Positions 21,783 through 57,028 of a stretch of DNA of 64,000 nt are shown piece by piece. The position numbers and the translations under genes are program-made. A model generated the notes under the pieces. The model was not told where the DNA came from. It was given only the letters and a program-made list of their open reading frames with translations, and ran no database searches. The DNA comes from Massilibacillus massiliensis. GTDB taxonomy: Bacteria; Bacillota; Negativicutes; FLKF01. Location: NCBI RefSeq assembly GCF_900086705.1, contig NZ_LT575483.1:2015894-2079893 (forward strand). The letters are read 5' to 3'. Numbering within the stretch: the stretch's first letter is position 1; each line of letters begins with the position of its first letter.

Positions 21783-22628
21783 TTATCTCATCTCATCTCC
21801 GGCATCCAACCGCTTCCGTCTTTCTGCCTCAATTTTCTTTACGCTTTTCTCTGCCACCGGCAGATTTTCCGGCATAGTTCCACCTAGTTCAGCGATTGTT
21901 TGTCTTACTTTCTTCCCAACAGAAAAATGCGTCTGATTCGCTTTTTCTTTTCCTTTTATTTTTTCACGTCGCAATTTTTCATCAGTTTGTGTAGCTCTAA
22001 ATAGGTTAGCAGCCAGCTCCGTACTTCCCATATGATCTAAGATGGTTTGGTTCTTTTTTAAACCTTTATGCGCATGAATCTCTTTGGCACCCAGCCCACC
22101 ATATAGCCCCTTATAACCACTGTTTTGAAAAATAGCATAGTCTTTTCCCTCTTGAACTCCGGCGTATTTAGCAGCTTCAGCTAAGGATTTATTATGATTT
22201 TTTAATTCATTCCGTATTGCCAAACGTTTTTGTTCTTCATTCAATCGTTCAAATTCTTCTTGTACTTCCTGTTCTCTTGTCTTTACCGCAAAATAGGTTT
22301 GTCCTAATGCTACGACCTTTTTACGCGAATCACCATTCTGAACAATCAAATAACAGGCATAGCGCGTTAATTTAACATCCTCAATTCCACGCTGCACACC
22401 AGAACCGATTTCAACCATTTTGTTGACGTCAACAAAATGGTTAGATAGTAGGTTGCCACTATTTTTACAAGCTATTTTTGCTTTATGAATGACCTTTTCA
22501 AAATTTCTCCATTCCGTATATTCTAAAATTACTAGCAACTCTCTTGCATACCAAAATTCCGTACCATGATCATCATGGTATTTACTATCTTCAAATATTT
22601 TCATTGAATACTCCATGATATCTGTCAT
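21783..22628 (-). CDS. dinD: DNA damage-inducible protein D
   Basis: A 281-residue DinD-like protein. The N-terminal BRO-N/KilA-N-like domain (about 20-110) has FWYARELLVILEYTEWRNF and LTRYACYLIVQNGD, both typical of DinD. The middle is a charged helical region (VQEEFERLNEEQKRLAIRNEL), followed by the DinD C-terminal block DYAIFQNSGYKGLYGGLGAKEIHA. In Escherichia coli DinD is SOS-induced and inhibits RecA filament activities. ATG 22628 follows AGGAGAG. It stands alone between two terminators. A perfect CTATAAG inverted repeat lies just upstream. Confidence 0.9.
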   Translation of the reverse strand: MTDIMEYSMKIFEDSKYHDDHGTEFWYARELLVILEYTEWRNFEKVIHKAKIACKNSGNLLSNHFVDVNKMVEIGSGVQRGIEDVKLTRYACYLIVQNGDSRKKVVALGQTYFAVKTREQEVQEEFERLNEEQKRLAIRNELKNHNKSLAEAAKYAGVQEGKDYAIFQNSGYKGLYGGLGAKEIHAHKGLKKNQTILDHMGSTELAANLFRATQTDEKLRREKIKGKEKANQTHFSVGKKVRQTIAELGGTMPENLPVAEKSVKKIEAERRKRLDAGDEMR

Positions 22629-37780: not shown

Positions 37781-37990
37781 TATGCTTTTGGCATCGCCCC
37801 AAAAGTATCAAAAGGTCTAGGCCATAAACCTCCAAAATACTTGAAAAATGAGCGGCTTACTAAAATCCTTAACTCGCTTCGCTCAAACAAACGGATTTTT
37901 TTACGTAAGCCACTCATTTTTCATCCTTCGGAACATATTTTTCCGGAAAAGGCCGGAGACGAAAAGAAAAATTGCCGCATTAAAATGCGA
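37781..37990 (-). repeat. Structured dispersed repeat, copy B (uninterrupted)
   Basis: Read on the minus strand from 37990, this matches copy A at 6556-6735 and then continues without a break through the sequence found on the far side of the IS110 element (8273-8294). The main stem is 37905-37912 with 37853-37860, extended by TGAG/CTCA and AAAAAT/ATTTTT. Compared with copy A, two A-T pairs are replaced by G-C and one C-G by U-G, so pairing is kept while sequence changes. It lies downstream of ppiB on the same strand, as copy A lies downstream of its neighbour gene. Confidence 0.8.
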
Positions 37991-37995
37991 TCTGA

Positions 37996-38032
37996 AAATA
38001 GCTTGTATTCACATAGTGAATACAAGCTATTT
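37996..38032. repeat. Perfect 17-bp hairpin beside copy B
   Basis: AAATAGCTTGTATTCAC (37996-38012) pairs perfectly with 38016-38032 around a 3-nt ATA loop. No T-run follows on either strand, so an ordinary terminator is unlikely. Confidence 0.75.
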
Positions 38033-38061
38033 AAATACGTACCACTTATAAACTAGTACGA

Positions 38062-38203
38062 AGATAGGCTGCCGGTTGGTGAGAAGTGCTCATATGCTAG
38101 GCACAGCAAGGGGTTGTGAAGGAGTCGTACTGCCGTACGTCGACAAACAACCCCTTGCTGTAACGACGCAGATGTGTGCTTATCGCCGACCCGCTGCCTA
38201 TCT
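38062..38203. repeat. Long imperfect hairpin element
   Basis: About 140 bp that folds end to end. AGATAGGC (38062-38069) pairs with GCCTATCT (38196-38203). An imperfect middle section pairs the 38085-38097 region with about 38168-38180. A perfect 15-bp stem lies at 38103-38117 with 38147-38161 (ACAGCAAGGGGTTGT). A small CGTAC/GTACG hairpin is at the tip. It is GC-richer than its surroundings and non-coding, between copy B and ppiB. It looks like a MITE-like or palindromic repeat, or a structured RNA. Confidence 0.7.
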
Positions 38204-45639: not shown

Positions 45640-45671
45640 TTGTTAACTAATATTTTATTTTAACTTAACAA
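45640..45671. promoter_or_regulatory. BirA-type biotin operator, promoter-distal site
   Basis: TTGTTAACT, 14-bp spacer, ACTTAACAA. Arms and spacing match the Gram-positive BirA operator (TTGTTAAC-type arms separated by 14-15 bp). It lies downstream of the bioD start of transcription. Confidence 0.75.
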
Positions 45672-45681
45672 TCAAACTATT

Positions 45682-45713
45682 AAGTTAACCTTCAATATTA
45701 ATTAAGTTAACAA
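45682..45713. promoter_or_regulatory. BirA-type biotin operator, promoter-proximal site
   Basis: AAGTTAACC, 14-bp spacer, AGTTAACAA. Same geometry as the neighbouring site. It begins 5 bp after the -10 box, so a bound repressor would cover the transcription start. Confidence 0.78.
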
Positions 45714-45718
45714 TAAGT

Positions 45719-45747: not shown

Positions 45748-46067
45748 TACAATAAATCTATTTACGTATTCTATTCTAAATTAAATAACTGCAAATTTTA
45801 ATTTAGAAATCAAATGAATTGGAAAACACATGAAAATCGTTGCTATACTGATACCTTCCTACATTTTACTTCTCTTTCAATTCCATTCAATATAAGGCAT
45901 TCTCTCGGTTATTTATAGTTTAGCCTGCAGGTTTTAAACAACAATATATATTTTATCCTGAAGTATCAGAAAAGCATCTTGACAGCTGAATCAATTTACA
46001 ATATAATACATTAGCAATGAGTATTTACAAATACTTTTTTGTTTATTTTTTCCACAAAAAACATTAT
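45748..46067. other. AT-rich intergenic stretch without a supported gene
   Basis: I see no convincing gene. A small perfect AGTATTT/AAATACT hairpin near 46020-46035 is followed by six T on the plus strand. A 21-codon hydrophobic open frame exists at 45830-45895 with weak support. Confidence 0.5.
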
Positions 46068-46101
46068 GTCAATAGATATTATATCTATAATATCTATTGA
46101 C
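46068..46101. promoter_or_regulatory. Perfect 34-bp palindrome over the tRNA-Pro -35 box
   Basis: GTCAATAGATATTATA (46068-46083), TC, and the exact reverse complement (46086-46101). The right arm contains the first five bases of the TTGACA -35 box; by symmetry the left arm carries the same bases on the other strand. This could be an operator or the centre of divergent promoters. Confidence 0.8.
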
Positions 46102-46125
46102 AAACCCTCACCTCTTTTATATAAT
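46097..46125 (+). promoter_or_regulatory. Promoter of tRNA-Pro
   Basis: TTGACA (46097-46102), a 17-bp spacer, and TATAAT (46120-46125): a full consensus promoter, as expected for a stable RNA gene. Confidence 0.88.
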
Positions 46126-46153
46126 ATATTTTGTTAACGCGATTATATGTTAA

Positions 46154-46230
46154 CGGGGCATGGCTCAGTTTGGTAGAGCACCTGGCTTGGGACCAGGGGG
46201 TCGCAGGTTCGAATCCTGCTGCTCCGACCA
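46154..46230 (+). tRNA. tRNA-Pro (anticodon TGG)
   Basis: A 77-nt cloverleaf with encoded CCA. The acceptor stem CGGGGCA pairs with TGCTCCG (one G-T pair). The anticodon arm CCTGG-CTTGGGA-CCAGG gives anticodon TGG. The T arm has GGTTCGAATC. Single gene with its own promoter and terminator. Confidence 0.97.
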
Positions 46231-46240
46231 CAAAAAATAT

Positions 46241-46268
46241 AAACATCTTCTAAAATTAGAAGATGTTT
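46241..46268 (+). terminator. Terminator after tRNA-Pro
   Basis: A 12-bp stem AAACATCTTCTA (46241-46252 with 46257-46268), a 4-nt loop, then a T-run. Confidence 0.88.
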
Positions 46269-46372
46269 TTTTATGTATAAAATCATAAATAGTAAAGCAA
46301 TTTTTTATCATCAACAATTTATTTAGGATTTTGATAAATCCTAAATAAAATATATTTTTTATGTCAACACTC

Positions 46373-46401
46373 TTGCAAAAAAATAAAAAAAGGTGTATCC
46401 T
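46373..46401 (+). promoter_or_regulatory. Promoter of a candidate small RNA
   Basis: TTGCAA (46373-46378), a 17-bp spacer, and TATCCT (46396-46401). It lies 32 bp after an 11-bp perfect hairpin (ATTTAGGATTT, about 46320-46345). Confidence 0.55.
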
Positions 46402-46407
46402 ATTTTA

Positions 46408-46501
46408 TGGGGAACTACTACAGTTATCTGTAGTAGATGGCAAAGGGTATAGAGGCGGCAGCAGCGAGAGTTTAACGGAAAAACTCTCGCTGTTGTTTTT
46501 T
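46408..46501 (+). ncRNA. Candidate small RNA with intrinsic terminator
   Basis: About 93 nt between the promoter above and a strong terminator. A first hairpin has CTACTACAG pairing with CTGTAGTAG around a TTAT loop. A 25-nt unpaired linker follows, then a terminator stem CAGCGAGAGTTT/AAACTCTCGCTG (46462-46473 with 46481-46492) and a T-run. No gene follows on this strand within 500 bp. Two very short open frames are present inside, so a leader peptide cannot be excluded. I do not recognise an Rfam family. Confidence 0.5.
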
Positions 46502-49434: not shown

Positions 49435-51369
<1,935 letters not shown>

Positions 51370-56647: not shown

Positions 56648-56699
56648 GAAGAAAATCCTTTCTCAAAAGAAAATATAAACATAATTTATTAACATCTTT

Positions 56700-57028
56700 A
56701 TAAATTATCCACAGTTTTATTCACAACTGTGAATATCTTTTTGGGGGAAAAGTAAAAAAAGACGAAAAAAAATACAAAATCGGTAAAATAAAATTTGCCG
56801 AATATTTGTATTATCTATATTTGTCAGTTTACGTGCTCATGTGGATAAAACTGTGCATAAGCTATGTATTCTGTTAATAAGGTTGCATTTTATTCACAAA
56901 ACATAATAAATTTGTGTGAATTGTGGATAAGTAACTAACTTTATATTATCAAAAGGAGTGTAAGTTATCAACATGTTTTTATAGAAAACGGCATAAAATT
57001 ACAATAAATATCCACAAAGTTATGAACG
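56700..57028. other. oriC part 2: DnaA-box cluster between dnaA and rpmH
   Basis: Boxes include TTATCCACA at 56705-56713, TTATTCACA at 56717-56725 and 56890-56898, minus-strand TTATCCACA at 56848-56840 and 56940-56932, minus-strand TTATGCACA at 56860-56852, and TTATCAACA at 56965-56973. A near-match ATATCCACA lies at 57008-57016. The 505-bp gap has no gene. It separates leftward from rightward transcription, as expected at the origin. Confidence 0.9.

Follow-up and report, generated by a model that had tools for sequence, protein, structure and literature searches.

Tandem promoters are found ahead of bacterial stable RNA operons, for example P1 and P2 of the rrn operons. Further, nascent RNA hairpins have been reported to restrict the movement of RNA polymerase, according to a reference listed in PMC10310618 (Toulme et al. 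2005). Our literature search for tandem tRNA promoters combined with a hairpin or a palindrome found nothing relevant. Here we describe a tRNA-Pro locus of Massilibacillus massiliensis in which a perfect palindrome overlaps the second of two such promoters. From comparison with related loci we lean, with some reserve, towards reading the palindrome as a hairpin under selection in the 5' leader of the longer of two tRNA-Pro precursors, the one derived from the upstream promoter.

The whole stretch of DNA analysed, hereafter the window, comprises 64,000 nucleotides. It also contains gyrB (49435-51354) and, at ~56690-56735, the DnaA-box-like sequence TTATCCACAGTTTTATTCACAACTGTGAATA; the GC skew changes sign from the 48-56 kb bin to the 56-64 kb bin, and the region at ~56690-56735 is a probable replication origin. 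For comparisons we used 380 genomes of the same class, with no further representative of the family to which the window genome belongs, all 40 relatives being related at class level only. The genomes that matter most in the following are G001, a Massilibacillus MAG, and G155/G156, which represent one genus of family f11. With promoters called from consensus match only, the tRNA-Pro locus of the window comprises these elements:

45979..46007, + strand: upstream promoter P1, TTGACA-17-TATAAT (12/12), predicted start at ~46014
46020..46040, + strand: weak hairpin AGTATTTACAAATACT in the P1 leader with a T run behind it, conserved in neither G001 nor G155
46067..46102, + strand: palindrome and predicted plus-strand RNA hairpin of 16 bp with a 4-nt loop, kept in L005 and L064/L065/L133
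46097..46125, + strand: main tRNA-Pro promoter P2, TTGACA-17-TATAAT (12/12), with its −35 box in the right arm of the palindrome, predicted start at ~46132
46131..46156, + strand: small hairpin TTGTTAAC/GTTAACGG in the leader, at the tRNA's 5' edge, present in G001 with a G.U pair
46154..46230, + strand: tRNA-Pro, anticodon UGG
46241..46272, + strand: intrinsic terminator of tRNA-Pro

Positions 46068-46101 read GTCAATAGATATTATA TC TATAATATCTATTGAC, that is, two mismatch-free 16-bp arms around a 2-bp centre, and an extra T/A pair lengthens the palindrome to 46067-46102 with 17-bp arms. Both arms contain TTGAC, the left-arm copy being on the minus strand, and the right arm shares these five bases with the start of the P2 −35 box (TTGACA, 46097-46102), which is followed after 17 bp by the −10 box TATAAT at 46120-46125. 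The original prediction, made from the letters of the window, had described the 34-bp palindrome and its overlap with the tRNA-Pro −35 box correctly, but had overlooked the 12/12 promoter P1. Since P1 lies upstream on the same strand, the palindrome falls within the leader that P1 would transcribe.

To judge how unusual this arrangement is, we relied on 864 kb, about one fifth of the genome, with sampling biased to tRNA neighbourhoods. This AT-rich sequence contains 53 perfect inverted repeats whose arms measure at least 16 bp, most of them flanked by T runs and terminator-like, so the length of the palindrome alone is unremarkable. What is exceptional is its position: in the 864 kb, it is the sole inverted repeat (arm ≥10) that touches the −35 box of a promoter with a match of at least 11/12, and P1 and P2 are the sole tandem pair of 12/12 promoters within 200 bp (1.73 Mb of strand sequence scanned). 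Other tRNA promoters in the genome have no strong upstream hairpin, or one resembling the terminator of the preceding gene; for this resemblance we set aside such hairpins here and in f10. The genome also has a second copy of tRNA-Pro, which has neither P1 nor the palindrome. First-order Markov sequence (284 kb) contained no inverted repeat with an arm of 13 bp or more and the palindrome has a fold z-score of −7, which together show that it is not due to chance.

A mobile or repeated palindromic element can be rejected, as the palindrome has one copy in its own genome. Rfam searches gave only the tRNA, both around the palindrome at E≤1 and across the window at the gathering cut-off, and a pattern scan of viral contigs for the palindrome gave no match. 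The window does hold a copy of a dispersed repeat at ~37965-38080, with at least seven other copies in the genome, a central hairpin TATTCAC-N3/4-GTGAATA, outer arms that vary between copies with complementarity kept, and shared flanks CATTAAAATGCG.CAGTC... and CCACTTATAAACTAGTACGAAG. Another perfect palindrome, of 30 bp and free of terminator features, is located at 22413-22442 (AACCATTTTGTTGACGTCAACAAAATGGTT).

Among the 380 genomes, the palindrome precedes tRNA-Pro in three lineages only: the window genome, G001 and G155/G156. The loci are orthologous, tRNA-Pro being followed in the same order by a conserved ncRNA, the gene of a gmk-like kinase and a gene of htpX type, and they have the layout P1-palindrome-P2 in common. 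P1 matches the consensus at 12/12 in each (the window, L005, L064 and L065), and the sequence around P1 of the window matches G001 at 85%. In G001 the palindrome reads GTCAATAGATATTATA TAT TATAATGTCTATTGAC, in G155 GTCAATAGTCGGA (12 nt) TTCGACTATTGAC, and its total length in the three lineages is 34, 35 and 38 bp. The distance from P1 to P2 is 118, 91 and 70 bp, and the linker between P1 and the palindrome is scrambled, while palindrome and P2 remain joined. The original prediction was to fail if relatives lost the symmetry but retained the promoter. This comparison speaks mostly for function, as two other lineages preserve the symmetry, one of them with an altered inner stem. The genes upstream of the locus are bioD and a bioA-type gene in the window and different ones in G001 and G155/G156; the palindrome is thus linked to the tRNA and not to bio, and the suggested connection to the bio promoter had to be dropped. 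Ahead of bioD, at 45640-45715, the window has GTTAAC-containing repeats (TTGTTAAC...TTAACAA) that resemble a BirA operator, with similar ones at the f13 locus.

Three further families are informative. In f17 (G016, L006), whose gmk-like protein is closer to that of the window (69% over 121 aa) than the G155 protein is (62%), P2 is present and P1 and the palindrome are both absent. We count this joint absence in favour of a hairpin that belongs to the P1 leader. The coupling to P1 is not strict, as f13 (G012, L007) has no P1 but a different 14-bp AT-rich inverted repeat that ends 12 nt before P2; its locus shares the upstream bioD with the window. In family f5 (L013, L018, L090, L016, L091), the tRNA-Pro(UGG) genes have a hairpin between P1 and P2 that is unrelated in sequence and contains three compensated pairs. 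We count these as an independent parallel; the class thus has more than one instance of a hairpin placed between tandem tRNA-Pro promoters.

Downstream of tRNA-Pro, at 46395-46500 on the plus strand, we found a conserved, strongly covarying RNA element next to the gmk-like gene. It has a promoter-like sequence and a terminator hairpin of its own, a covarying 5' hairpin and an invariant GGCA.A..GTATAGAGGC between the hairpins. It shows compensatory changes at 14 of 23 consensus pairs (14 sequences) and has Blast matches in 34 of the 380 genomes, chance accounting for some of the weakest; in several f11 genomes it lies directly before the gmk-like kinase gene. It has no Rfam match, and we regard it as a candidate for a new regulatory RNA.

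The outer eight pairs of the palindrome stem (GTCAATAG/CTATTGAC) are invariant in the three lineages and, as they never vary, uninformative on structure. Their right half consists of the −35 box plus the bases that flank it upstream; for their left half no promoter role can be seen, and its complementarity is kept all the same. Over the stem, all 11 alignable pairs (100%) are paired in the three distinct sequences, against 18-46% for a slid partner, and three of the 11, in the inner stem, have changed on both sides: one from A-U to U-A, one from U-A over U.G to C-G, and one from A-U to G-C. The U-A, U.G, C-G series at a single pair looks like a wobble intermediate. Pairing is thus preserved by compensatory changes; since it comes from three distinct sequences and 39 of 500 shuffle controls reach equal covariation, we take it as suggestive, not conclusive, of an RNA stem. 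The two non-Watson-Crick pairs, one each in G001 and G155, read G.U in the plus-strand and A.C in the minus-strand sequence, and the strand assignment rests on just these two wobble pairs. Predicted folding energies for the plus and minus strands are −16.7 and −12.4 kcal/mol in G001, −14.0 and −11.4 kcal/mol in G155 (last base omitted), and equal in the window.

Elsewhere in the class, the combination GTCAATAG..CTATTGACA occurs, in the matches examined from G036, G132 and genus g56, in protein-gene contexts with no tRNA found adjacent. In L145, L148 and L156-L159 it takes the form of GTCAATAG-N18/24-CTATTGACA inverted repeats, which are operator-like, unrelated to tRNAs and alike among several g56 species.

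Perfect symmetry and overlap with a −35 box are classic for a DNA operator, on which a dimeric or tetrameric regulator would cover the P2 −35 box and block both P2 and read-through from P1; the outer arms GTCAATAG/CTATTGAC, unchanged across three lineages, fit this too. We nevertheless consider an operator unlikely. A site for a dimer would have a fixed half-site spacing in orthologues, but the outer half-sites measure 34, 35 and 38 bp end to end, a shift of 4 bp between lineages with no fixed helical phase. Further, what stays invariant on the right is simply the −35 box, the inner arms vary with compensation, and the genome has only one such site, although single-target regulators exist. These observations speak against the dimeric regulator proposed originally, and the compensated inner pairs, the plus-strand G.U and the varying length favour an RNA hairpin over an operator of fixed spacing. 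The drift in length would be tolerable for a cruciform, in which the AT-rich palindrome would extrude, the −35 box would leave the duplex and P2 would become sensitive to supercoiling. The perfect AT-rich palindrome, flanked by two strong promoters and with a DNA hairpin energy of −12.3 kcal/mol per strand, suits this explanation, which had also been raised before and stays among the candidates as a very unlikely one: mismatches in both relatives weaken the DNA stem (−9.4/−8.2 in G001), yet they are wobbles in the plus-strand RNA, and G.T pairs confined to one strand favour RNA.

Many long hairpins in this genome are terminator-like, and our scan flagged a terminator-like site on the minus strand of the window. 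That the palindrome terminates or attenuates the P1 RNA or leftward transcription is still highly improbable, as intrinsic terminators have a G+C-rich stem with a U tract directly after it, whereas here only 3 of 17 pairs are G-C and the plus-strand stem is followed by AACCCTCACC, without a U tract; on the minus strand, the T run lies a few nucleotides off in the window and is absent from G001 and G155. Leftward transcription from a promoter created by duplication of the −35 region had also been suggested as one possibility. The minus strand of the window does contain TTGACA-16-AAAAAT (10/12), but by inspection neither G001 nor G155 has a usable −10 box to match, and we rejected such a divergent promoter. 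The palindrome could also be an unselected by-product, left when the −35 region was duplicated in inverted orientation and maintained by template-switch repair of imperfect palindromes, which is able to restore symmetry. The occurrence of CTATTGACA at P1 of G155/G156 would fit, as the motif may have been copied earlier. We attach the least weight of all to this last explanation, given that the palindrome was kept over a family-level distance (gmk-like proteins 62-85% identical) despite the scrambled linker between it and P1.

If the palindrome is indeed a leader hairpin, P2 would give a precursor with a short leader and P1 one with a long leader. RNA polymerase coming from P1 would traverse the P2 region, and the nascent RNA would form the 16-bp hairpin. 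Its right arm would be bound to spell the P2 −35 box and its left arm would track it by complementarity, with the inner stem and the length free to drift. We infer that P1 fires and that the RNA form is the target of selection. The hairpin would most likely act as a structural part of the P1 transcript, protecting it, flagging it for processing, or letting polymerase from P1 pass P2 without stalling or slipping backwards. A role against misfolding of the leader with the tRNA received no support in a folding test, where shuffling the left arm gave no drop in acceptor-stem pairing in the window and G001 and a drop in G155 only; we therefore do not propose that the hairpin chaperones the pre-tRNA. 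A bolder and quite unlikely extension is that the nascent hairpin at the P2 −35 box acts as a traffic device, which would stop P1 complexes from backtracking or stalling at P2-bound polymerase, or would couple P1 firing to P2 activity, with one DNA segment serving as promoter box and RNA stem.

If the RNA-hairpin reading is true, a −35 box doubles as a hairpin arm in RNA transcribed from a promoter further upstream, which would couple the tandem promoters of a stable RNA in a compact way, and the palindrome offers a testable case of symmetry under selection at a tRNA promoter. If it is false, the palindrome is no more than an oddity of this lineage, limited to one tRNA gene of a few Massilibacillus relatives.

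Compared with the known systems, the locus resembles rrn P1/P2 in having two serial consensus promoters for one stable RNA, the upstream one giving the longer leader. It differs in serving a single tRNA gene and in the perfect palindrome between the promoters, which has bases in common with the P2 −35 box. The short stable hairpin in the 5' leader is akin to leader hairpins that make an RNA more stable or hold back RNA polymerase; unlike in these, one arm doubles as a promoter element, so that both arms are constrained, and the function is putative. The tRNA-Pro(UGG) loci of f5 likewise have tandem promoters and, within the P1 leader, a hairpin with compensated pairs, yet their hairpin is unrelated in sequence, lies ~30-85 bp before P2 and does not overlap the −35 box.
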